From positions 1-38,569 of the forward strand of contig JAAFGX010000035.1 in the NCBI GenBank assembly GCA_010365115.1: a DNA stretch of 38,569 nt, read 5' to 3'. Within the stretch, counting starts at the first letter, position 1. Every line of letters starts with the position of its first letter. Below the pieces are notes generated by a model. That model was not told the DNA's origin. It did not search any database and worked only from the letters and a program-made list of their open reading frames with translations. The position numbers and the translations under genes were made by a program. This document shows positions 2,988-31,676 of this stretch, piece after piece. The DNA comes from Paludibacter sp. Its GTDB lineage: Bacteria; Bacteroidota; Bacteroidia; Bacteroidales; Paludibacteraceae.

Positions 2988-4562
2988 CTACTTGCTTTCG
3001 CCAATCAACCATTTAATAACATTATTTGCAGCATTTTCACCATCAACAGCCGAAGATGTGATTCCTCCCGAATAACCAGAACCTTCGCCTGCCGGGAAAA
3101 GTCCTTTTATTGTAGGGTGTTGTCCGGTTTCCACATCACGGGGAATGCGAATTGCTGATGAAGAGCGGGTTTCAACACCCACAACCACAGCATCGTTTGT
3201 TACGTAGCCATGCATTTTGCGGTCGAATTTTTTAAATCCTTCACGAAGTCGGGACGAAATTATTTCGGGTAGCCAGAAATGCAAAGGCGATGATATTAAT
3301 CCGGGCAAATAGGAGCATTCGGGTAAATCGGACGAAAGCTTTCCTTTTACGAAGTCAGCCAACCGTTGTGCCGGAGCCACTTGTCCGAGACCGCCGTTAT
3401 TTTTTAAAGCCATATTTTCAACGTGTTGTTGGAATTTTAAGCCCGCCAACACGCCAAATTCCTTAAACTCGTCAGGAATATCTTCAGGACGAATTTCTAC
3501 CACAATACCAGAATTGGCATAAGGCGAATTGCGTTGCGAAGCTGACATACCATTTACCACAATTTCGTTTTCATTGCTTCCTGCAGGTACGATATGACCG
3601 CCAGGACACATGCAAAATGAATAAACACCACGCTCATTTACCTGATCTACTAGATTATAGCTGGCAGCCGGTAAAAATTCACTTCGCGTCTTACAGTGAT
3701 ATTGAATGCTATCAATGAAGGATTGCTTATGCTCCACTCGAACACCCATTGCAAAACCTTTAGGTTCTAAGGCAATTCCCTGATTGTGTAGCATTTCATA
3801 AATATCGTGAGCCGAATGTCCGGTAGCTAGAATTAACGATTTTGCCTCGAAAATACTTCCATCAGCTGTTTTACAACCCGTAATTTGATTATTCTTAATT
3901 AGTATTTCAGTCAGTTTTTGTTCAAAATGAATTTTACCACCAAAAGATGTTATAGTTTTACTGATATTTTCAATTACCTGTGGTAATTTATCAGAGCCAA
4001 TATGAGGATGCGCTTCGTACATAATTTCGGAAGCGGCTCCATGATAATGAAATAGCTCAAAAATGCGATCGGTATTTCCTTTCTTTTTCGAGCGAGTATA
4101 CAATTTACCATCAGAGAATGTGCCTGCTCCACCTTCGCCGAAACAATAGTTGGAATCTGCGTCAATCCCTTTATTCCGGCTCAATTGTGCAATGTCAACT
4201 TTACGTTCGTGTGCGTTTTTTCCTCGTTCAAGTATAATTGGCTTCAAGCCTGATTCAATGAGCCTTAAAGCTGCAAAAAGCCCCGCAGGACCCGCACCAA
4301 TTATCAAAACAGGAGTTTCGTTACTTACGTTTTTGAAATTAAATTCAGGTTTGATCAACTTAGGTGCTTCTTCATCCCAATATACTTCAACTGTAAGATT
4401 TACTTTCGGCAAAAAAGCTCGGGAATCTATTGATTTTTTCAACGTTCGCAATCGGGTAATCCGTTGCGGTGAAATTTCAAGTTTATCAGCAACCAGTTTT
4501 GTAAGTAAATCCTGTTTGTAAGCCTGTTCGGGAGTAAGTGAAATTTGGAGTTCGTTGTGCAT
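2988..4562 (-). CDS. FAD-dependent oxidoreductase (COG2509-like)
   Basis: A 524-residue flavoprotein. The dinucleotide-binding motif GAGPAG is at about residues 89-94, followed by LERG at the end of the second strand. A conserved GEGGAGTFSDGKL block lies near 142-154. A C-terminal FAD-closing segment, FPAGEGSGYSGGITSSAVDG, completes the fold. The roughly 85-residue N-terminal extension before the Rossmann motif is typical of this group of uncharacterised FAD-dependent dehydrogenases. The substrate is unknown. The longest reading frame starts 13 codons upstream at 4601, but a TATCTTTG promoter element lies inside that extension (4589-4596), so the ATG at 4562 is chosen. It follows yigZ on the same strand with its own promoter. 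Confidence 0.85.
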   Translation of the reverse strand: MHNELQISLTPEQAYKQDLLTKLVADKLEISPQRITRLRTLKKSIDSRAFLPKVNLTVEVYWDEEAPKLIKPEFNFKNVSNETPVLIIGAGPAGLFAALRLIESGLKPIILERGKNAHERKVDIAQLSRNKGIDADSNYCFGEGGAGTFSDGKLYTRSKKKGNTDRIFELFHYHGAASEIMYEAHPHIGSDKLPQVIENISKTITSFGGKIHFEQKLTEILIKNNQITGCKTADGSIFEAKSLILATGHSAHDIYEMLHNQGIALEPKGFAMGVRVEHKQSFIDSIQYHCKTRSEFLPAASYNLVDQVNERGVYSFCMCPGGHIVPAGSNENEIVVNGMSASQRNSPYANSGIVVEIRPEDIPDEFKEFGVLAGLKFQQHVENMALKNNGGLGQVAPAQRLADFVKGKLSSDLPECSYLPGLISSPLHFWLPEIISSRLREGFKKFDRKMHGYVTNDAVVVGVETRSSSAIRIPRDVETGQHPTIKGLFPAGEGSGYSGGITSSAVDGENAANNVIKWLIGESK

Positions 4563-4588
4563 GTATTCTAATGAAAAATATTGGAGTA

Positions 4589-4596
4589 CAAAGATA
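4589..4596 (-). promoter_or_regulatory. -7 promoter element for the FAD oxidoreductase
   Basis: The minus strand reads TATCTTTG, an exact Bacteroidota -7 consensus, 26 bases upstream of the ATG at 4562. No clear -33 TTG is seen at 19-21 bases. It decides against the longer reading frame that begins at 4601. Confidence 0.7.
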
Positions 4597-4636
4597 CGCA
4601 AAAACTACCTTAATGCAGTAATTATGAGAAAACGGT

Positions 4637-5242
4637 TTAAATCTGCTCCATTTTAATTACCAAACCCATTATTTTGTTAAGTTTTGAGGTAAATTGGTTC
4701 TCATTTTGTTTTGGGATGGAAAGTTGAATTACACATAAATTCTCAAAGGATTGTTCAATAATCCGGGCGTTTGAGTCTTTGATAATATGCATTACTTCGT
4801 TCGTTTGAACATAATCAAAATGAATGGTAATAATTACGTCAACCGTTTTTTCAATAATTGCGGCCAGATTAAGTGCATCGGCTGCAGCTTCTTTGTAAGC
4901 AGTTGTCAATCCGCCAGTTCCTAATAGAACACCACCAAAATATCGAACTACGATAACCAAAACGTTGGTCAATTCGCGTGAGTTTATTTGTCCCAGAATT
5001 GGCCGTCCTGCCGTTCCTCCAGGTTCACCGTCGTCATTTGTTCTGAAATCATTCCTATCAGCTCCAAGCATGTATGCATAACATACGTGGCGGGCATCAT
5101 AATAATCCTTCCGATGGTTTTTTACAAACTCTTTCACTTCTTCAACTGTACTCACAGGAATTGCAAAAGAAAGAAATTTACTTCCTTTTTCTTTATAAAT
5201 CCCTTTAAATGTTGTAGTTATTGTTTTATAAATATCGGACAT
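4637..5242 (-). CDS. yigZ: YigZ/IMPACT family protein
   Basis: A 201-residue protein of the UPF0029/IMPACT family. The N-terminal domain carries the family blocks KGSKFLSFAIPV, ARHVCYAY, DDGEPGGTAGRPIL and VVRYFGGVLLGTGGL. The shorter C-terminal part (about 135-201) fits the DUF1949 ferredoxin-like domain. The bacterial members are of uncertain biochemical role, and the eukaryotic relative IMPACT regulates the kinase GCN2. It has its own promoter match upstream and lies 74 bases before the FAD oxidoreductase gene on the same strand. Length and motif order match the family well. Confidence 0.93.
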   Translation of the reverse strand: MSDIYKTITTTFKGIYKEKGSKFLSFAIPVSTVEEVKEFVKNHRKDYYDARHVCYAYMLGADRNDFRTNDDGEPGGTAGRPILGQINSRELTNVLVIVVRYFGGVLLGTGGLTTAYKEAAADALNLAAIIEKTVDVIITIHFDYVQTNEVMHIIKDSNARIIEQSFENLCVIQLSIPKQNENQFTSKLNKIMGLVIKMEQI

Positions 5243-5287
5243 TCCTTTTATGAGTAATATAATTGAAAGTTTGTATTTACACTTCTA

Positions 5288-5295
5288 CAAATGTA
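5288..5295 (-). promoter_or_regulatory. -7 promoter element for yigZ
   Basis: The minus strand reads TACATTTG, matching TAnnTTTG, 45 bases upstream of the ATG. A TTTG -33-like word lies at 5319-5322, slightly further away (23 bases) than the usual 19-21. Confidence 0.55.
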
Positions 5296-5450
5296 CGGTT
5301 TTTGAAATTAATTATGCGCAAAGAACTTATTTTAAAAGAAACTGAAGTTTTAAGAATATTGAGACTATTTCCTATTTTATTTACCAATCCATGTTGAAAT
5401 AAGAACCAAATAATTATTGCTATTACCATCTAGAAATTAATAAAAAGAAG

Positions 5451-5458
5451 TATATTTG
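5451..5458 (+). promoter_or_regulatory. -7 promoter element for tRNA-Thr
   Basis: TATATTTG matches the TAnnTTTG consensus and lies 39 bases before the mature tRNA start. The expected -33 TTG is not clear. Confidence 0.55.
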
Positions 5459-5497
5459 CAACTCAAATAAAGATAACTAAATTATATTTATTTACAT

Positions 5498-5570
5498 GCC
5501 TCTTTAGCTCAGTTGGTAGAGCAATTCATTCGTAATGAATAGGTCGCGGGTTCGAGTCCCATGAGAGGCT
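5498..5570 (+). tRNA. tRNA-Thr (anticodon CGT)
   Basis: A full cloverleaf. Acceptor stem GCCTCTT pairs with GAGAGGC (one T-G wobble), the D arm reads AGCTCAGTTGGTAGAGC, anticodon stem ATTCA/TGAAT encloses loop TTCGTAA, and the T arm contains GGTTCGAGTCC. The anticodon CGT is at 5531-5533 and reads ACG threonine codons. The discriminator is T5570. The 3' CCA is not encoded, as CAA follows. Confidence 0.95.
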
Positions 5571-5581
5571 CAAAAAGTAAT

Positions 5582-5606
5582 ATCAACTAATGTTGGTGTT
5601 TTATTT
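5582..5606 (+). terminator. short terminator after tRNA-Thr
   Basis: ATCAAC (5582-5587) pairs with GTTGGT (5592-5597), with one T-G wobble and a 4-nt loop, followed by GTTTTATTT. The stem is short but correctly placed, 11 bases after the tRNA. Confidence 0.5.
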
Positions 5607-5618
5607 AAAATTCTATTC

Positions 5619-5963
5619 ATGTTAATGTTCGATAACGCAATATTTGCTTCATTTATTCCTCAGATACTGATGGTAATAGCATATATTTCGTGCGTTATTG
5701 CGCCGAATTTCACAAAACAAGATGATGTTGATGTTACAGAGACACCAATTTATAAAGTTGTTTTAGTTCAATCAACTTCTAGCCTTCCATCTCAAACGAT
5801 TTCTTTTGACAATATCAATTTGATCTCCGAATTGTTTGTACCTAAGATTGAAAATACATTTCCCAATGCATTTTTTTTTAAAAAGATATTTCCGGAAGTT
5901 GTGTTTGACATTTCTAAAAGTCTCAAATTCTTTTCTTTTTTACGCCCTCCTCCTTCTTTTTGA
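5619..5963 (+). CDS. small membrane-anchored hypothetical protein
   Basis: A 114-residue protein with an alternative ATG two codons in. It has one probable transmembrane helix near the N-terminus (about residues 8-29, containing IPQILMVIAYISCVIA). A polar middle and a C-terminal segment rich in Phe end in LRPPPSF. I do not recognise a family. It is oriented with, and 168 bases upstream of, the TonB receptor and haem genes, and starts 12 bases after the tRNA-Thr terminator. The hydrophobic start, single TM segment and lack of overlap with another gene favour a real gene. A short TM protein with a periplasmic tail beside an outer-membrane receptor could be an accessory of that receptor, but this is a guess from position only. 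Confidence 0.55.
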   Translation: MLMFDNAIFASFIPQILMVIAYISCVIAPNFTKQDDVDVTETPIYKVVLVQSTSSLPSQTISFDNINLISELFVPKIENTFPNAFFFKKIFPEVVFDISKSLKFFSFLRPPPSF

Positions 5964-6107
5964 TAATTTCTTTCTTTTTTCTATGTTTATAATTTATAGT
6001 GTTTAGGAGCAATTGTGCTTTTGAACATGTATGGATTACAAACATACGAACACTTTTTACCTTTATTAATGAGAATTTTCTGATGTTTTAAACAGAGAAA
6101 CCAGCTT

Positions 6108-6115
6108 TATATTTC
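6108..6115 (+). promoter_or_regulatory. weak candidate promoter before the haem operon
   Basis: TATATTTC is one base off the TAnnTTTG consensus and lies 16 bases before the ATG of the TonB receptor. The 168-bp spacer (5964-6131) also holds small inverted repeats: AGCA/TGCT at 6008-6019 and GTATG/CATAC at 6029-6047. Either could be an operator, but nothing matches a known Fur or haem-regulator site convincingly. Confidence 0.3.
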
Positions 6116-6131
6116 CACAAAAATTAATTCA

Positions 6132-8216
6132 ATGAGTAATCGTGTCAACTATTTTATTGTCACATTTTTATATTTAAGCAGTAGTGTTTTTGGAGTAAAT
6201 TTTAATGCCCCAAAAAATTACTCCGACTCAGTTGCTCTAAACGAAATAGTAGTGCAAGCCTCGCGTGACAATTCGAAGCTACATGCTATTCCTGCTTCTG
6301 TCTCAATAATTTCTTCAAAGCAAATTCAAACGCTTGGAATCAATTCGTTGACTGATGCGACTTCTACAATTGCCAATCTTTTTATGCCCGATTATGGTTC
6401 AAAGCTCACTTCCCCTATTTATATCCGCGGCATTGGATCGCGTATAAATGCGCCTTCGGTAGGATTGTACGTCGATCATGTTCCATATTTCGAAAAGGCT
6501 GCTTTCAATTTCGATTTTTTCGATATCAACCGTATCGAAGTTTTACGCGGCCCGCAGGGAACTCAATACGGACGAAATACTATGGGTGGCATTGTCAATA
6601 TTCTTACCAAATCGCCCATCGATTATCAGGGTACTGATCTCAATTTACAAACCGGAACGTATGGAACATTTTTATTGAATATAGGGAATTATTCTAAAAT
6701 CAATACTAAATTTGCATGGTCGCTTGCGTTAAATTATCGTCATAACGATGGCTTTTTTATAAACGATTTTTTGAATACAAAAGTGGACAACCTCGATTCT
6801 TATGGAGCAAGAACCCGATTGGTTTGGAGTGTTAATGATAAACTATCGGTAGAAAATATATTAAGTTTTGAGTCCAGTAAACAAGGTGGTTATCCGTATG
6901 CCGTTTACAACGACAGTTTGAAAAAGCCCGAGAAAATTTCCTATAATCTGGAAAGTGGTTACAACCGCAATTTAATTTCGGATGCGTTGGTTTTGAAATA
7001 TAACACGAAAAGTATTGAGCTGAAATCTGTTACTTCTTATCAATATTTATCCGATAATCAGTTTATAGATCAGGATTTTAGTGATAAAAATATTTTTTTT
7101 GTAACTCAACTATCAAACCAAAATATGGTATCGCAGGAAGTGACTGTACAATCAAAAAACAAAGTGAAATATAGTTGGATTTCTGGTGCTTACGGCTTTG
7201 TGCAACAATTTGATAATGGAACTGATGTGAACCGTTTTGCTACAAAAACGATGACGATGAAGAAATATGATCATGTAATAAGTGGAGGTGCAATTTTTCA
7301 TCAATCAACTTTAAAAGATTTTATTTTACCCAACTTTAATCTTTCAGCCGGAATAAGAGTTGACGCCGAAACTGATTTGCTAACGTATCTATATGATATC
7401 AAAATAAATAACGAAATTGCAAACTTGAAAGATACAACTTATAACTCGTTGAACTCATTACAGGTTTTACCCAAAATTTCGATGAATTATAAAGTGAATA
7501 CCACTAATTTTTATGCGTTGGTGGCTCGCGGTTACAAAACGGGAGGTTTCAATTCTTCATTTGAGCGTCCAGAAGATTTGACTTTTAAACCTGAATCGAG
7601 TTGGAATTACGAAATTGGTATTAAAACATCCTTGTTTAATAATAAATTATTTGTAGAAAGTTCTTTGTTTTATATTGATTGGAAAAATCAGCAAATATAT
7701 CAAACAGCACCAAGTGGCATTGGATCGTTGTTGAAAAATGCAGGTGTGTCGGTAAGTAAAGGTTTAGAAATAACCCTAAATACTGCGAAAATTCATGGAT
7801 TTGAATTTATGGTTTCCTATGGATTTACGAATGCTACTTTTATATCAAACGTTATGAATGCAACGGTTAATTATAATGGTAATTTTATACCTTATGTTCC
7901 GAAAAATACGTTGGCAATTCAACTGAATAAGACATTTGAAATTGTAAATTCAAATTTATTGAATCGTATTGTGCTGAATACTATATATAAAGGTACAGGA
8001 GAAATTTACTGGAATGATAAAAATTCCCATAAACAAGATTTTTATAATCTGCTAGATGCCCGGATTAGTTTTATTCGCAGAAACATACAAGTTGATTTTT
8101 GGGGCACAAACCTGACAAATACTTCTTACGAAACTTTTTATTTCGAGTCTGGGAGAAAATATGTACAAATGGGAAGACCTTTACACATGGGAGTAAAGTT
8201 ATCGGTAAATTTTTAA
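6132..8216 (+). CDS. TonB-dependent outer-membrane receptor, probable porphyrin/haem or iron-chelate uptake
   Basis: A 694-residue protein with an N-terminal signal segment (about residues 1-21) and a TonB-box-like stretch around LNEIVVQASRD. It has a plug domain (about 45-165) containing PIYIRGIGSR, GLYVDHVPY, RIEVLRGPQGTQYGRNTMGG and VNILTKSP. A 22-strand-type barrel follows and ends in a terminal Phe (LSVNF), as outer-membrane proteins do. It imports a ligand across the outer membrane using TonB energy. The next gene starts 4 bases after its stop, and haem enzymes follow, so a porphyrin, haem or iron complex is the likely ligand. The ligand itself cannot be read from the sequence. No haem-binding HmuR-type motif was clearly identified. 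Confidence 0.88.
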   Translation: MSNRVNYFIVTFLYLSSSVFGVNFNAPKNYSDSVALNEIVVQASRDNSKLHAIPASVSIISSKQIQTLGINSLTDATSTIANLFMPDYGSKLTSPIYIRGIGSRINAPSVGLYVDHVPYFEKAAFNFDFFDINRIEVLRGPQGTQYGRNTMGGIVNILTKSPIDYQGTDLNLQTGTYGTFLLNIGNYSKINTKFAWSLALNYRHNDGFFINDFLNTKVDNLDSYGARTRLVWSVNDKLSVENILSFESSKQGGYPYAVYNDSLKKPEKISYNLESGYNRNLISDALVLKYNTKSIELKSVTSYQYLSDNQFIDQDFSDKNIFFVTQLSNQNMVSQEVTVQSKNKVKYSWISGAYGFVQQFDNGTDVNRFATKTMTMKKYDHVISGGAIFHQSTLKDFILPNFNLSAGIRVDAETDLLTYLYDIKINNEIANLKDTTYNSLNSLQVLPKISMNYKVNTTNFYALVARGYKTGGFNSSFERPEDLTFKPESSWNYEIGIKTSLFNNKLFVESSLFYIDWKNQQIYQTAPSGIGSLLKNAGVSVSKGLEITLNTAKIHGFEFMVSYGFTNATFISNVMNATVNYNGNFIPYVPKNTLAIQLNKTFEIVNSNLLNRIVLNTIYKGTGEIYWNDKNSHKQDFYNLLDARISFIRRNIQVDFWGTNLTNTSYETFYFESGRKYVQMGRPLHMGVKLSVNF

Positions 8217-24096: not shown

Positions 24097-24225
24097 ATGG
24101 AGTATAGAAAACCGTTAATTGAAAGAATTTTTCTCGATGAAGATATCTCAATGCAACTTTATTCTGCTCCAATAACTGCACCCGGAGATTCCTGGTATAT
24201 ACGTTCTATAACACCTGATTACTAA
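24097..24225 (+). CDS. 42-residue precursor-like peptide
   Basis: A small protein starting MEYRKPLIERIFLDEDISMQ and ending SWYIRSITPDY. It is charged at first, then has a segment with Ser, Pro, Gly and aromatic residues (APITAPGDSWY). It has no signal peptide or TM helix. The form (short conserved-looking leader such as KPLIERIFLDEDIS, then a variable tail) is what is expected of a RiPP precursor. The next gene encodes a PqqD-fold protein of the kind that recognises leader peptides. Longer starts exist: ATG at 24055 (56 aa) and TTG at 24001. The ATG at 24097 is preferred because the translation before it looks like non-coding AT-rich DNA. No consensus promoter was found upstream. Real gene: likely. 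Precursor role: inferred from context. Confidence 0.6.
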   Translation: MEYRKPLIERIFLDEDISMQLYSAPITAPGDSWYIRSITPDY

Positions 24226-24265
24226 AATAATGACCCATTTAAAAATAAAAAGATTGATGTTATTT

Positions 24266-24297
24266 AAAAAAAATCCTCGAGCAATCGGTTTTTTTTT
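24266..24297 (+). terminator. possible weak terminator between peptide gene and pqqD
   Basis: A run of A, then CC and a loop CTCGAGCAATC-like segment, then GG and nine T residues. The A-tract can pair with the T-tract across the CC/GG pairs. The stem is weak in G-C but the T run is strong. If it works it would make a short separate transcript for the peptide. Confidence 0.35.
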
Positions 24298-24325
24298 GTT
24301 TAAATAATTAAAAAAGTTATCTTTG
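24295..24325 (+). promoter_or_regulatory. promoter of the pqqD-HprK-ABC unit
   Basis: TTTG (24295-24298), a 19-bp spacer and TATCTTTG (24318-24325). Transcription should start near 24331, leaving a leader of about 107 nt. A perfect palindrome, CGTTTTTAAAAACG (24347-24360), lies just inside the leader and could be an operator or a small hairpin. Confidence 0.8.
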
Positions 24326-24437
24326 CACTTACTGATCTTTTTAAGACGTTTTTAAAAACGATAATTATTAAGTGATTAGGTTAGTTCTATTCTTTATTAA
24401 AGCTCTAAATTCAAATATTAAAATATTGGAAGTTGCT

Positions 24438-24713
24438 ATGCATATTCAAACACTTTACAAAATTAAATCAAGATTTGTTACCCGTGAAGTCGGAAACGAA
24501 TTAATCATTGTTCCTCTTTCTGGAAATGTAGCTCAAATGAATGAACTGTTTACTTTAAACGAAACGGGAAAATTTATTTGGGAATGCTTAGATGAAAAAA
24601 ACACCTTTGATGATATAGTAGCCTTATTGACCGAAGAATTCGATATTGATGAAAATACTGCACGCACTGATGTGGAATTGTTTTTAAAAAAAATCGAAAA
24701 TTTGTTAGACTAA
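24438..24713 (+). CDS. PqqD-family peptide chaperone (RiPP recognition element fold)
   Basis: A 91-residue protein with the PqqD fold. Beta-hairpins with NELIIVPLSGNVAQMN come first, then the hallmark LNETGKFIWECLD helix start and a winged helical half (TFDDIVALLTEEFDID to VELFLKKIENLL). PqqD-type proteins bind leader peptides and present them to modifying enzymes. The open frame continues 22 codons upstream from a GTG, but the ATG at 24438 gives the usual family length of about 90. It is the first gene of a three-gene unit, 18 bases before the kinase-like gene. No radical-SAM partner is present, unlike the pyrroloquinoline quinone pathway, so the symbol pqqD is not applied. Confidence 0.85.
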   Translation: MHIQTLYKIKSRFVTREVGNELIIVPLSGNVAQMNELFTLNETGKFIWECLDEKNTFDDIVALLTEEFDIDENTARTDVELFLKKIENLLD

Positions 24714-24731
24714 CCATCAACCTTACATACC

Positions 24732-25592
24732 TTGAATCAAAAAAGCATAAACATAGCCGATTTTCAAATAAATCTACTATCTGAAACTGAAATGGTTTTT
24801 GAAATTGGTTACGAACCTTTTTTTTTAACAACCAAAAACTATATTAGCGATATAAACATTCAGTGTTTTTCGGAAATTCCAACATTACCACATCATTTTC
24901 AGAAACCGGTTTTTGAAGCTGAAAACGATACACAAAAATTTTATTCCATTTATAAAATGGATAATGATTTGGTTTTTCTGATCTACAATCAGCAAAACAT
25001 CAATGAAATTCAACAATATGCGGTTTTGGATGAATCTTTCAAAAACTGGAAAATTTATTCTCATTCAAATCCGGAAGGACAGATCAATCCGCTTCGATAC
25101 CCAATGGGGCCTATCGTTATGCAATATCTTACGGTAAAATCGGAAGCTGTCATGATTCATGCTTCCTGCGTTTTTGATGGTGAAAAAGGTCGCATTTTTA
25201 CAGGCTTTTCGGGAGCAGGAAAGAGCACTATGTCAAAAATATGGGCTGAAGCCGGGAACTTAATAATTAACGACGACCGATTGATAATTCGCAAAACCAG
25301 AGAAGGTTATTTTGCATATAACACACCCATGTATTATGCCGACGAACCCAAAAAAGCGCCTTTAAGCAGTATTTTCTTAATCAAACATTCGCCTGAAAAT
25401 AAAATAATCAAATTGAGTGGTGCATTGGCTGTATCAAAAGTGCTTGCTTTTTGCATTCAAAATAATTTTGATAAATATTTTATTGCAAATAACCTCAATT
25501 TTATTGCAGAATTGAGTACTCAAGTTGCTGTTTATGAACTTGGAGTAGTGCCCGACATGAATATCATTAATTATGTATTAACCAATGAATGA
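24732..25592 (+). CDS. HPr-kinase-like P-loop protein
   Basis: A 286-residue protein whose C-terminal half matches the catalytic fold of HPr kinase/phosphorylase. It has IHAS at 142-145, the P-loop GFSGAGKST at 158-166 and INDDR at 179-183, corresponding to the HprK GVGKS and ADD motifs. The N-terminal 130 residues are of unknown fold. HprK-like proteins without a PTS link occur in RiPP gene clusters, where some phosphorylate a precursor peptide. Such a role here is inferred. The gene begins with TTG, 18 bases after the pqqD-like stop. The next in-frame ATG (24792) would remove 20 plausible residues. Its end overlaps the ABC gene by 8 bases, so the two are translationally coupled. Confidence 0.78.
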   Translation: MNQKSINIADFQINLLSETEMVFEIGYEPFFLTTKNYISDINIQCFSEIPTLPHHFQKPVFEAENDTQKFYSIYKMDNDLVFLIYNQQNINEIQQYAVLDESFKNWKIYSHSNPEGQINPLRYPMGPIVMQYLTVKSEAVMIHASCVFDGEKGRIFTGFSGAGKSTMSKIWAEAGNLIINDDRLIIRKTREGYFAYNTPMYYADEPKKAPLSSIFLIKHSPENKIIKLSGALAVSKVLAFCIQNNFDKYFIANNLNFIAELSTQVAVYELGVVPDMNIINYVLTNE

Positions 25593-27834
25593 TAGTAAAT
25601 TAAACAATGAACTTTACAATTTAGCTGAAACTATTCTTAATGGAAACCATTCATTGAGTTATAAAATGAAAGGATTCAGTATGTATCCTACTCTTAGACC
25701 AGGAGATATTGGTTTGGTTGAGAAATTTGGTACAGAAGAATATAAAGTTGGGGATATTGTTGTTTTTAAGTCAAATGGGATATTAGTAGGTCATAGACTA
25801 ATAGAAATAAACATTGAAAATGGTGAACGCATTTATATAACAAGAGGAGATAAAAGTCCACGAAATGATGCACCATTTAGGAACGAAGATCTTTTAGGAA
25901 AAATCACTTCTTTCGAGAGAAAAAATCGCAAAATAAAAATAAACAGTCCTCTTTCGAAAATGAGGAAATTTTCAGTGCTCCATTTTCATAAACATACACT
26001 AAACATTTACAACTTTATGCTTCGGAATGAAAATCGTATCAACTCGCTTTTTTCAAATCTGAGATCAATCAAACGGAATGTTTCAATTGTCTCAAAAGGC
26101 TCTGAAAAAGTTTTTATAATAAATGCCGTCATTTCCGTACTTCAGGGAATAATCCCATTTATTATTATAGTGTGCATTAAATCGTTAGTTGATTATCTGT
26201 CTATATCTTCTACTCAAAACATACGTGAACAGTTATTTTTTATCTCGCTCTTAATTGGGACAGCACTTGTTTTTCTTTTAAGTGCGGTACTTTCAGAAAT
26301 AAAAACCTTATATTCCGAAAAATTATCGCAATCTATTACCCGTCGTATTTACGAAAAATTACACAAAAAGCATGCTTTGCTCGACTTGTCGAATTACGAA
26401 AATCCCGATAAACAAGATAAAATTCACCGTGCAGTGCAGGAAGCATCTTTCCGCCCAATCAAAATCATGAATGCATTGCTCTTGGGCATAAAATCGATTG
26501 CTTCCGTACTGTTCTTAATCGGTTTATTTATCTCCATCAAATGGTATTTGGTAGTGATTTTATTAATAGCTATTATTCCCGATGTTTTTGTAAGACTTAA
26601 ATTTTCAAAGAAACTCTATGAACTAAAAGATTCGCAAAGTACAAAAGAACGCGAAATGTATTATTATAACCGAATTTTAACCGGTTTTCCCTTTGCTAAA
26701 GAATTGAAATTATTTGGTTTTTCAGATTTTTTTCTAAAACGATTTTCAAAAGTTCAAGAAACTCTTTATGAACAAAAAATATCACTTCGCAAATCGGAAC
26801 TTCGTTTAGGAATTTTTGCACAGATTTTTGCAGTAGTTTTAATATTTATTTCACTTGGGTATGTTTCATTGCTTAAAATAAATGGTGAAATATCGATTGG
26901 TACTGTTGTATTGTTTTTCTTTGCTTTTCAGCGCGGTTATTCGGTTTTAAATGAATTTTTCCGTTCTATTACTCAAATATTAGAAGATAATACTTTTTTG
27001 AAAGATGTCATAGATTTTCTAAATGCTCCTACACGGGCAAAATCAATTTCCGATTTTATTGTCCCATTTTCGTTGAACAAAGAAATCAGATTTGAAAATG
27101 TTAGTTTTAGGTACGAATCTAGCAAAAGAGACGCTTTAAAATCTATCAACATTAATATTCCAGCAGGGAAAACTGTAGCTTTTGTTGGTGCTAATGGTTC
27201 GGGAAAAACTACTTTAATTAAATTACTTTGTGGATTTTATGAGCCCGATTCAGGCAGAATTCTTTTTGATGGCATAGATTCTAATCAAATAGGACAAAAA
27301 GTAGTTTGTGAAAATATTACAGCCGTATTCCAGGATTTTGCTTTGTATAATATTCCTGTTTTCGAGAATCTTGGATTAGGGAACATTCAAAAATCTTTTA
27401 ATCTTGAAAAAGCCAAAGAAGCAGCAAAAGCAGCCGGAATTGATGACATAATTGAGACATTACCGAATGGCTACCATACTTTACTTGGTAATTTATTTAA
27501 AGGTGGCGAAGAATTAAGTATCGGTCAATGGCAAAAAATGGCTATCGCTCGTGCTTTTTATCGCAATTCGTCATTAATATTGATGGATGAACCTTCGAGT
27601 GCGTTGGATGCAAATTCTGAAATGCAAATTATCAATAGTTTGAAAGATTTATCTCAAGGCAAAACTGCTGTTATCGTAAGTCACCGACTCACTACGGTCC
27701 AATGGGCCGATTTGATTTATTTTTTTCAGGATGGAGAAGTAGTGGAATCGGGTAGTCACAACGAACTGATGGCATTGAAAGGTAGTTATTTTGCACTGTT
27801 TCAAACAGCGAATAAACAGTTTGAAGAATCCTAA
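25585..27834 (+). CDS. ABC exporter with N-terminal S26 signal-peptidase-like domain
   Basis: A 749-residue fusion. Residues 1 to about 125 are an S24/S26 peptidase-like domain. It has GFSMYPTLRPGD (30-41) with the predicted nucleophile Ser32, GDIVVFK, VGHRLIEI with His70, and TRGDKSPRND with Asp89 or Asp95. This is the Ser-His-Asp set of SipW/ER-type signal peptidases. Transmembrane helices follow from about 175 to 465. The ATPase domain has Walker A GANGSGKTT (535-543), Gln583, signature LSIGQ (644-648), Walker B LILMDEP and His700. The peptidase domain has no helix before it, so it should face the cytoplasm. That mirrors C39-peptidase exporters, which cut precursor leaders during export, with an unrelated serine peptidase. 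Its stop overlaps pabC, on the opposite strand, by four bases. Confidence 0.88.
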   Translation: MNDSKLNNELYNLAETILNGNHSLSYKMKGFSMYPTLRPGDIGLVEKFGTEEYKVGDIVVFKSNGILVGHRLIEINIENGERIYITRGDKSPRNDAPFRNEDLLGKITSFERKNRKIKINSPLSKMRKFSVLHFHKHTLNIYNFMLRNENRINSLFSNLRSIKRNVSIVSKGSEKVFIINAVISVLQGIIPFIIIVCIKSLVDYLSISSTQNIREQLFFISLLIGTALVFLLSAVLSEIKTLYSEKLSQSITRRIYEKLHKKHALLDLSNYENPDKQDKIHRAVQEASFRPIKIMNALLLGIKSIASVLFLIGLFISIKWYLVVILLIAIIPDVFVRLKFSKKLYELKDSQSTKEREMYYYNRILTGFPFAKELKLFGFSDFFLKRFSKVQETLYEQKISLRKSELRLGIFAQIFAVVLIFISLGYVSLLKINGEISIGTVVLFFFAFQRGYSVLNEFFRSITQILEDNTFLKDVIDFLNAPTRAKSISDFIVPFSLNKEIRFENVSFRYESSKRDALKSININIPAGKTVAFVGANGSGKTTLIKLLCGFYEPDSGRILFDGIDSNQIGQKVVCENITAVFQDFALYNIPVFENLGLGNIQKSFNLEKAKEAAKAAGIDDIIETLPNGYHTLLGNLFKGGEELSIGQWQKMAIARAFYRNSSLILMDEPSSALDANSEMQIINSLKDLSQGKTAVIVSHRLTTVQWADLIYFFQDGEVVESGSHNELMALKGSYFALFQTANKQFEES

Positions 27835-29516: not shown

Positions 29517-31676
29517 CTAAAGCACTACTTTATAAGCTTTCGAATTGATTCTTACAATATAAGCTGAATTGTGTTGAACAGGTAATTCTAAAGTTTCACC
29601 TGTTGATTTTGTAGTTTGTAATAATTTCCCTGAAAAAGAAAACAACTCAACAGTTTCATTTTTTTTAGCGCCTTGCACAATTATATTCTTGGAATTTGAA
29701 TATATTCTCACTTGGTTAGCATCTGCACCAGAGATATCTGTAGATAACAATACGTTTCCATCTAATGCAATGTATTTAGATGTAATCCCATTAGAAGAAA
29801 CATCAATTTGACCTAAATACTTACTCACTCCCAATCCTGCAGCTAAACGTACATAAATTGATGTTGGAAGTACTTTTCCACTTGATATCGGAAGAACCAA
29901 ATTACTTGTTCCTAAAAAACCAGTTCCCATAATGGTCGATAATTCAAAGCCTGCCGGAGCACTGATGATCAGATCTGATAACAAACCATCAGCACTTACA
30001 GAAAACGATTGTTGGTTTGATGGTCCGTTGCCAATTAAATAATTTAATTCTGAAATTATACCTGTGGAAACCGTTAGCGTCTTAGGCACGGAAACCAATC
30101 CACTCAAATATATCGAGTTAGTTATACCACCACCTGTTTGTAATACAATACTTCCAGAACGAGAACCGTCAGTTAGATTTGCTTTTAATCGTACATAAAT
30201 TAAAGTTGAATTGATAATGCCACTTGATTGTGATAAAACTAATTGCGAAGTTCCACTAAATTGACTACCCGTTTCAGTTGATATTTCGTAATCTGAAGAT
30301 GCTGTAATGATTAATCCCGGTGAAATTTCTTTACCGCTAACTGTAAAAAACTGTACAGCAGAAGGACCGTTTCCTACCACATAACCGAAGTCTGTTAATG
30401 TTGTAGATGAAACATTTATTTTAGGAATTAAGTTAACAGCACCTGCAAAAGCAATTGTTTTCGTTGTTTTCGTTGTTGCCCCGGATGTTAAACTTAGGTT
30501 TTCAAAATATGAACCCTTTGTCAAACCGGCTTTTAGTCTTACATAAATGGTGATTAATGCTACATTACCGCCCGATTGTGAAATAGTAAATGAATTAGAA
30601 CCCGAAAAGTCAAAATGTGCGAATATTGAGATTTCATAACTTTCGGGAGCGCTAATGGTAATGCCACTAGTCAGACCACTTCCTGATACAGTAAACGATT
30701 TTATGTTAGAAGGACCATCACCTTCGTTGTAAGTAAATCCAGATAATGACAATATAGAGTTGTTTATAGTAGCAGGTGGTGGACCTACTGTTCCTGTTAA
30801 TAAAATCGACGATGAAGTTGCATTGGCAGATACAACGGTAATATTTCCACCATAAGTATTGGAAGTTAAGTTTGACTTTAATCGCGTGTAAATTGTAACC
30901 GAGTTTACAAATCCATTGATCTGAGGGATAATTATTGAATTTTTTGGATCAAAAGAACTTCCAGAAAACGTTGATATTTCATAGTTTAAAGGTGCAGTAA
31001 CAGTTATTGGAACTATGAGGTTGCTTCCTTTCACTATAAAGGACTTTTCACTTGAAGGACCATTACCTGGAGTGTAATTAAATCCGATCAAATCCGTTTT
31101 CGAAACATAGACTGTAGGTTTAGTATTTAAGCTAAACGAAAAATTATCCCAGAAAACGATACTATAGGCCGAACTTTGCACGTTAAAAACAAAATCAGTG
31201 GCACCTATTGGAGCTACGATATCACATGTATAGGTTTTCCAAACTCCAAGTTCAGTAAACAAATAAGCACCTTTTCCTCCAGGACCTTTTAAAATTAGAG
31301 AATCTTCAAGCGACATTGCAATAGCTTTATTTGCCGAGTTTTTGAAATAACAGGAAATTAGGGCATCTTCTCCATCACCTTGTTCAATGTAATATGATAA
31401 TTTGAGAGTATAAGTTTTACCTGCCGTGACTGTTACGCTTTGTGAAACAGAAATGTCATTGTTAGATTGTCCAGTGTTAATTTTACAAGATGTTGCACCT
31501 TCAGTAAAAATTAAATTATTTTGTGAAATATAAGTTGTATTTGTAAAAGTCCAGCCCGTAGGTTTACCATTTGCCCAGGTTTCGAACCCAGGATTCACCA
31601 ATAAATTCTGTGCATTTAAATGTATTGCACAGAATAAAACGATCAACAATAGTAGATTTTTTTTCATGTGTTTCAT
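29517..31676 (-). CDS. secreted multi-repeat protein with type IX secretion sorting domain
   Basis: A 719-residue exported protein. A signal peptide (about residues 1-23, ending LNAQ) leads into a jelly-roll-like domain (about 25-185, starting LLVNPGFETW) of the kind often binding carbohydrate. Four copies of a repeat of about 110 residues follow (188-297, 303-413, 418-527, 532-641). Each has a GNGPS block, a YEIST-like strand and IYVRLKA. The C-terminus (about 652-719, VRIYSNSKNIIV to AYIVRINSKAYKVVL) is a type A sorting domain that directs passage through the type IX secretion system to the cell surface. The terminal pattern is a confident match. The function of the repeats is unknown. It is monocistronic with its own terminator. 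Confidence 0.88.
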   Translation of the reverse strand: MKHMKKNLLLLIVLFCAIHLNAQNLLVNPGFETWANGKPTGWTFTNTTYISQNNLIFTEGATSCKINTGQSNNDISVSQSVTVTAGKTYTLKLSYYIEQGDGEDALISCYFKNSANKAIAMSLEDSLILKGPGGKGAYLFTELGVWKTYTCDIVAPIGATDFVFNVQSSAYSIVFWDNFSFSLNTKPTVYVSKTDLIGFNYTPGNGPSSEKSFIVKGSNLIVPITVTAPLNYEISTFSGSSFDPKNSIIIPQINGFVNSVTIYTRLKSNLTSNTYGGNITVVSANATSSSILLTGTVGPPPATINNSILSLSGFTYNEGDGPSNIKSFTVSGSGLTSGITISAPESYEISIFAHFDFSGSNSFTISQSGGNVALITIYVRLKAGLTKGSYFENLSLTSGATTKTTKTIAFAGAVNLIPKINVSSTTLTDFGYVVGNGPSAVQFFTVSGKEISPGLIITASSDYEISTETGSQFSGTSQLVLSQSSGIINSTLIYVRLKANLTDGSRSGSIVLQTGGGITNSIYLSGLVSVPKTLTVSTGIISELNYLIGNGPSNQQSFSVSADGLLSDLIISAPAGFELSTIMGTGFLGTSNLVLPISSGKVLPTSIYVRLAAGLGVSKYLGQIDVSSNGITSKYIALDGNVLLSTDISGADANQVRIYSNSKNIIVQGAKKNETVELFSFSGKLLQTTKSTGETLELPVQHNSAYIVRINSKAYKVVL

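Follow-up and report, generated by a model that had tools for sequence, protein, structure and literature searches.

A contig of Paludibacter sp. (GenBank assembly GCA_010365115.1, contig JAAFGX010000035.1; all of its 38,569 nucleotides were analyzed and are called the window below) carries a small peptide gene followed by a triad of genes for a discrete PqqD-fold protein, an HprK-like kinase and an ATP-binding cassette (ABC) exporter fused to a peptidase. With a probability of roughly 0.6, we read these genes as part of a Bacteroidota pathway of the kind that makes linear polyphosphorylated peptides (LPPs), a class of ribosomally synthesized and posttranslationally modified peptides (RiPPs), in which a central maturation station would serve many precursors, each made beside one surface-exported protein. 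Elsewhere in the same genome, all six intact precursors (6/6) start shortly 3′ of a type A sorting domain of the type IX secretion system (T9SS) and on the same strand. As far as our literature search shows, the gene set itself is of a known kind, and the dispersed precursors, the peptidase–exporter fusion and the pairing with RemA-like T9SS cargo are new; no paper joining T9SS cargo with PqqD/HprK-type RiPP genes was found among the matches listed from the open-licence PMC literature.

LPPs were described from Bacillota by Popov et al. (Nat Commun, 20 May 2026; PMC13381572), and their gene set is given as a signal peptidase I (SpI)-like peptidase LppS, a discrete RiPP recognition element (RRE) LppB, an HprK-like kinase LppK, a nucleoside triphosphate (NTP) transferase LppN and an MsbA-like exporter LppD. 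The original prediction for this DNA, made from the window alone, knew of no described RiPP class with the set found here; as the published account defines the LPP class by the same set plus an NTP transferase, that claim is unsupported. It had also described a compact, self-contained locus, a picture that is unsupported as well: the precursor genes are scattered over the genome and stand next to cargo genes. Its description of the genes was accurate: all four lie on the + strand where they had been placed, the last two overlapping by 8 bases (25585–25592), and the IHAS, GAGKST and NDDR motifs of the kinase are all there. The features are as follows.

24097..24225, + strand: precursor peptide of an LPP-like family, 42 residues (own peptide model, E 2.1e-21, 78.1 bits, one TAA inside the match)
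24226..24267, + strand: in-frame continuation past the TAA with NNDPFK, untranslated in the standard code
24438..24713, + strand: discrete PqqD-fold protein, 91 residues, putative RRE with an LppB-like role (PF05402)
24732..25592, + strand: HprK/PEPCK-type P-loop protein, 286 residues, TTG start, putative peptide kinase with an LppK-like role (motifs and conserved residues)
25585..27834, + strand: peptidase–ABC fusion protein, 749 residues (Pfam)
25585..25950, + strand: signal-peptidase-type (S24/S26) N-terminal domain of the fusion protein, residues 1–122, with Ser32-His70-Asp95 (SEC11C match, all three residues invariant)
25951..27834, + strand: ABC exporter part with transmembrane and ATP-binding domains, MsbA/peptide-exporter type (PF00005, PF00664)

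Precursor family and triad enzymes

The 42-residue peptide exists as an open reading frame (ORF), as had been predicted, and is a shortened member of a family whose relatives are mostly 53–62 amino acids long. Its leader is complete, with the YxxP motif, a small residue 15 positions after the motif Tyr (Tyr+15) and a Ser at Tyr+20. The C-terminal part is cut short by an in-frame TAA (24223–24225), and the conserved end of the family, here NNDPFK, is encoded in frame within 13 codons after it (to 24264). The window peptide is a shortened or decayed copy of the family, or reflects a base error. It had no match in Pfam or NCBIfam, and the sorting-domain and module models described below found neither a cargo gene nor a cargo remnant upstream of it. 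The cargo pairing was invisible from the window because no cargo gene precedes its peptide and the peptide is truncated.

After a variable start, members of the family have a leader motif (consensus YxxPxIExIxLDxEISLxLxS), a stretch rich in Pro and Gly and, at the C-terminus, a motif resembling NDPFK. Among the precursor matches with YxxP, Tyr+15 is Ser, Ala or Thr in 79/79 and Tyr+20 is Ser in 77/79. The precursor family is translated: in the 62 Bacteroidales precursors with E ≤1e-8, single-base codon differences fall 880, 522 and 4988 times on the three codon positions, synonymous differences number 4826 vs. 1564 non-synonymous ones, and many synonymous codons are seen at invariant residues. 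A PDB search with one precursor gave no match, and one with the alignment gave a chance-level match only (E 0.71). A second degenerate copy, containing stops, lies on the − strand of stretch L110 (9624–9782), indicating that individual precursors have been lost more than once. On the − strand of stretch L189 (12974–13440), four precursor-like ORFs stand in tandem; their leaders are nearly the same, they have hardly any core, and they adjoin a PqqD gene and a gene of the NTP-transferase-type neighbor family F4.

The PqqD-fold protein matches PF05402 with 65.1 bits (cut-off 23.4) and, in PDB sequence searches, the lasso protein TbiB1 (5v1u, E 5.7e-4), a lasso PqqD chaperone (9x90, E 0.0054) and the LppB entry (9x8z, E 0.078). 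The kinase gives only weak matches to HprK/PEPCK profiles, the Pfam PEPCK match being sub-threshold; its H143, P-loop residues and N180-D181-D182-R183 are invariant across 24 sequences. The exporter matches PF00005 (102.7 bits) and PF00664 (44.5 bits), with TIGR02203 as its best NCBIfam match (284 bits, below the curated cut-off of 602). Its peptidase domain matches S24/S26 peptidases weakly and resembles SEC11-type signal peptidases (SEC11C, E 8.4e-6), and Ser32, His70 and Asp95 are invariant in 43/43 homologues of at least 150 amino acids. In 32 of these 43, peptidase and exporter form a single protein; nine of the 11 short homologues come from Flavobacteriales or Chlorobiota, and of the remaining two L183 is cut by a contig end and L184 is labeled Paludibacter.

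We found relatives of the kinase at E <1e-80 in 24 of 60 genomes, one match each: the genome of the window, 22 of the same genus and one of another family. The PqqD, HprK and ABC genes are contiguous and in the same order in all 23 strong loci of related genomes, an arrangement that is therefore more than chance. A wider search gave 48 triad loci, including ones in Flavobacteriales (Fluviicola, Crocinitomicaceae, Lishizhenia) and Chlorobiota. In a phylum sample of 395 genomes the kinase occurred at E ≤1e-20 in three, the genome of the window included, and the system thus looks rare outside the relatives of Paludibacter; HprK homologues on plasmids amounted to a single weak match. The NTP_transf_5 family (PF14907) is present in 18/24 triad genomes vs. 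7/36 others. Family F4 lies near the triad in 13/49 loci, and the two members tested both match PF14907.

Dispersed precursors and their pairing with T9SS cargo

The precursor model gave 188 matches in 26 of the 60 genomes, with 28 in genome G002, 21 in G011, 20 in both G004 and G023 and 18 in G019. The genome of the window has seven matches on six contigs, one being the TAA-bearing window copy and six standing intact elsewhere. In the neighborhood check proposed with the original prediction, the triad holds together in all 23 related loci, and the peptide starts within 500 bases upstream of the PqqD gene in only 7/23; five of the other 16 loci have less than 650 bases of contig upstream. Triad and peptide co-occur: of the 60 genomes, both are present in 23, triad only in one, peptide only in three and neither in 33 (Fisher P 2.5e-12); for the genome of the window and its genus, the corresponding counts are 22, 1, 3 and 10 (P 1.1e-5). 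As the peptide models hold rows from searched genomes, we repeated the test without the 10 genomes that gave rows and obtained 13 both, one triad only, three peptide only and 33 neither (P 2e-8), or 12, 1, 3 and 10 within the genus (P 0.001). A single maturation system with many precursors is also the arrangement of the prochlorosins, whose enzymes and leaders are unrelated to those found here; prochlorosins are not known to be paired with secreted proteins.

To describe what lies upstream, we surveyed 80 distinct precursor matches in 89 stretches, counting identical peptides once and including degenerate copies. An ORF of at least 80 amino acids ends within 400 bases upstream of 70 of them. 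Two such ORFs shorter than 100 amino acids were set aside (L104, the first precursor behind the same cargo, and L190, cut by a contig end), leaving 68 for testing; the 10 precursors lacking an upstream ORF are the window copy, the degenerate L110, the four tandem ones of L189, one of L192 and those of L167, L185 and L193, which lie where a contig ends. Counted at E ≤0.01, with some matches under the curated cut-offs, the C-termini of 67/68 upstream ORFs match TIGR04183 and those of 66/68 match PF18962, both being models of the type A sorting domain of the T9SS. The 68 include the peptidase gene at L192:12452, which is not cargo. Where the cargo gene is the direct neighbor, 8–172 bases separate it from the peptide. 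The pairing is also seen in Flavobacteriales (e.g., L192, L194–L196, L198 and L200), and in Chlorobiota (L197, L199) a PqqD gene stands between cargo and peptide.

The linked tails are a particular subtype. The genome of the window has 137 type A sorting-domain tails at E ≤0.01, and a sorting-domain model made without sequences from this genome ranked the six linked tails 1, 2, 3, 6, 7 and 8 among its 52 matches there. In five genomes the cargo bodies are little alike more than about 400 amino acids from the sorting domain, and the stretch directly before that domain is what they have in common. A model of this module, for which 13 cargo proteins were taken from the single genome G023, matches 65/67 upstream ORFs, a count that includes those 13. 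It has no Pfam or NCBIfam family name and matches the Flavobacterium johnsoniae proteins RemA (8gl6, E 4.4e-27) and RemZ (8gl8, E 1.9e-21) next to their sorting domains. Among 60 tail stretches of the genome of the window, which include some tails twice and cover only part of the 137, the module was found in the six linked tails and, weakly, in L232, near which no YxxP peptide was seen. The whole genome contains 11 module matches, and some modules therefore stand without a precursor. In six genomes, 41/46 strong module proteins among the matches listed are followed by a precursor, and over the 60 genomes module and precursor counts correlate (Spearman 0.77). The best module score is weaker than 1e-60 in 19/21 module-bearing genomes without the triad, and 23/24 triad genomes reach that level.

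Likeness to described systems and a proposed mechanism

The likeness to LPPs extends beyond the discrete PqqD-fold RRE, the HprK-like kinase, the MsbA-like exporter and a set without lasso cyclase. Both systems have a signal peptidase of SipW/archaeal type with Ser, His and Asp at nearly equal spacing (Ser32/His70/Asp95 here, Ser29/His68/Asp93 in LppS), and in both the precursor carries YxxP, a variable C-terminus and, at Tyr+15, a small residue with which the leader probably ends. According to the LPP paper, LppK phosphorylates Ser3 of the core, LppS together with LppB removes the leader after Thr-1, changing Ser29, His68 or Asp93 of LppS to Ala stopped cleavage, and deletion of lppN left the detected products unchanged (PMC13381572). 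Counted from the published motif, the cut falls after Thr at Tyr+15 and the phospho-Ser is at Tyr+18. The pattern at Tyr+15 and Tyr+20 makes the mechanism here read as LPP-like, presumably with a shifted phosphorylation site. The system differs in having its peptidase fused to the exporter and its precursors dispersed and paired with T9SS cargo, and in the absence of the NTP transferase from the genome of the window.

We propose that each cargo gene would be expressed together with the peptide gene that follows it, as the short gaps suggest. The PqqD-fold protein would grip the leader at Tyr-x-x-Pro, a role that the motif and the work on LPP and lasso peptides point to, the kinase would phosphorylate the conserved Ser 20 residues after the motif Tyr, the Ser-His-Asp peptidase domain would cut after the small residue at Tyr+15, and the fused ABC part would export the core peptide to the periplasm. 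Where present, the NTP_transf_5 enzyme may decorate the phosphate further. Analogy and the conserved residues of the enzymes support the RiPP-type pathway that had been suggested from the window, in which the leader is recognized, the peptide phosphorylated and the leader taken off as the product is exported. The gene pairing further suggests that the mature peptide may meet its neighbor's type A cargo with its RemA/RemZ-type module and could contribute to its placement, anchoring or assembly on the surface of the cell. In the genome of the window, the triad would serve the six intact precursors elsewhere, the copy beside it having lost part of its core.

In F. johnsoniae, RemA and RemZ themselves serve as gliding adhesins and belong to the type A T9SS cargo (PMC10994853). 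They resemble the cargo found here in having the module beside the sorting domain and differ in that the available portions of that source mention no paired precursor peptide. A parallel in gene order is provided by type B T9SS substrates, whose genes are often followed by that of their own PorP/SprF shuttle (PMC12618676), so that cargo followed by partner can be taken as an accepted T9SS logic. The cargo gene directly precedes that of a dedicated partner in both cases, but here the sorting domain is of type A and the partner a RiPP-type precursor.

LPPs are described as restricted to Bacillota, the main text of the paper does not contain the string "bacteroid", and their biological role is given as unknown (PMC13381572). 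A pairing in which nearly all precursor genes tested follow the gene of a large surface protein that is T9SS cargo, and which reaches from Paludibacter to Flavobacteriales and Chlorobiota, is a strong clue to the role of LPP-type peptides and makes it directly testable as an effect on cargo secretion, anchoring or assembly. The system would extend the LPP class to another phylum, add to it a peptidase–exporter fusion and provide a natural case of one enzyme set acting on many precursors, up to 28 matches in one genome. Two further loci, both from other Bacteroidales, suggest that beyond Bacillota there may also be LPP-type loci that are not paired with cargo. Stretch L053 of another Bacteroidales genome (G054, with five T9SS tails) has on its − strand (3477–8007) a compact LPP-like cluster with a 54-residue YxxP peptide, an HprK-like kinase, PqqD, NTP_transf_5, an ABC exporter and a small protein that has signal-peptidase motifs by eye and no Pfam match. 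Stretch L052 (genome G043, no T9SS tails) has a similar compact cluster on its + strand (3970–7386), in which no peptide was seen.

Weighing the alternatives

Several observations weigh against an LPP-type pathway tied to T9SS cargo. The candidate Ser lies at Tyr+20 (core +5), whereas that of LPPs is at Tyr+18 (core +3), the leader beyond YxxP reads YxxPxVLxHQxIxFETxxS in LPPs, and in pairwise PDB searches the sequence of the PqqD-fold protein resembles lasso TbiB1 more closely than it does LppB. PF14907 has no match in the genome of the window. Three genomes have precursors and no triad, and one has the triad and no precursor. The module occurs in 45/60 genomes, including 21/36 without the triad, which rules it out as an exclusive mark of the system, and its matches outnumber the precursors in several genomes (11 to 7 in that of the window, 37 to 18 in G019 and 19 to 2 in G024). 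Four of the six precursor-linked tails of the genome fall below the PF18962 cut-off, and the tails ranked 4 and 5, of the linked subtype (G000:C59:55552–57810), have no precursor seen behind them. Finally, co-variation of peptide core and sorting domain, for which the six pairs of the genome gave Mantel P 0.013, is unsupported in two larger sets (P 0.12 and 0.44).

In a more far-reaching reading, the mature phosphopeptide would itself be part of the display of its cargo: the two would be joined, through binding of the peptide by the module or through its coupling to the C-terminus that forms on removal of the sorting domain, and the phosphate, which an NTP transferase would decorate in genomes that have one, would be the link to a surface glycan. 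Such joining, which we regard as possible and on balance unlikely, would be a peptide-based route for anchoring or assembling proteins of the T9SS and would give LPP-type RiPPs their first biological role. In Porphyromonas gingivalis, an amide bond links cargo to a seryl-bearing lipopolysaccharide sugar, the transfer being ascribed to the PorU sortase (PMC13086638), and by analogy the peptide here could help in anchoring or assembling its cargo. The genome of the window, flagged as 7.2% contaminated, has two full-length PorU sortase genes (G000:C2:4916–8206 and C23:13427–16723). Two or more PorU matches, fragments included, are found in 6/24 triad genomes and 12/36 others, and a link of a second sortase to the system was dropped because PorU copy number does not follow the triad.

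The peptide might instead be a cargo-specific secretion helper or small subunit, unmodified or modified only for export and with a regulatory kinase step, by a logic comparable to that of the PorP/SprF shuttles. The order of cargo and partner, common for type B substrates and repeated here for type A, speaks for this; type A cargo, however, is said to be handled by PorV (PMC12618676), only 6/137 tails of the genome have a precursor behind them, and modification seems to matter, given that the kinase residues are conserved and the Ser is nearly invariant. We consider a helper of this kind unlikely. Still less probable, in our judgement, is a bacteriocin-like or signaling RiPP, released for killing or sensing and placed behind cargo genes merely for co-expression with genes of surface life. 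RiPP machinery with an exporter and several divergent precursors per genome would suit such a product, as would the patchy distribution of Bacillota LPPs, which their authors call typical of genes in biological conflicts (PMC13381572). Such a product leaves unexplained why the precursors are so tightly paired with a single cargo subtype, and clustering and inspection by eye recognized no shared immunity-like family within 9 kb of 49 triads; these families are partly annotated, and the nearest neighbors of the dispersed precursors were viewed by eye only. A compact bacteriocin locus in particular is not favored, the precursors being dispersed and paired with cargo genes.

That the pathway is decaying in this genome and the window set is a remnant seems improbable. 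It would fit that the peptide gene next to the triad is interrupted by an in-frame TAA, that neither a cargo gene nor a recognizable remnant of one precedes it, and that NTP_transf_5 is missing; against this, the triad ORFs are intact with conserved residues, six other precursors are intact and paired, and the TAA, which leaves the leader and candidate Ser in place, could be an assembly or base error. A lasso-peptide cluster that has lost its cyclase is very improbable. The PqqD-fold protein does resemble lasso B1 proteins, which share its fold, and HprK-like kinases acting on a C-terminal Ser are part of paeninodin/pseudomycoidin-type lasso clusters, some of which include a nucleotidyltransferase (PMC8498205). 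The peptidase here, however, is of signal-peptidase type, and the lasso B2 leader protease (PF13471), which phosphorylated lasso clusters have, found no match in the genome. This bears out the predicted absence of a lasso protease; radical SAM, YcaO and LanM proteins were not searched for genome-wide, and for the lasso cyclase none was recognized by eye among shared neighbor families, a genome-wide search not having been made.

Two minor observations remain. Near the triad, the − strand of the window (29517–31676) encodes a repeat protein of 719 residues whose C-terminus resembles a sorting domain very weakly (6.1 bits); the peptide model found no precursor there. A second PqqD-fold match of the same genome lies on contig C74 (L090, 7863–10649) and adjoins what by eye resemble an ATP-grasp protein and a decarboxylase of the pyridoxal phosphate type; the N-terminus of the decarboxylase-like protein, MEKIRYERPLIFKMNTG, contains a YxxPxI motif as in RiPP leaders.

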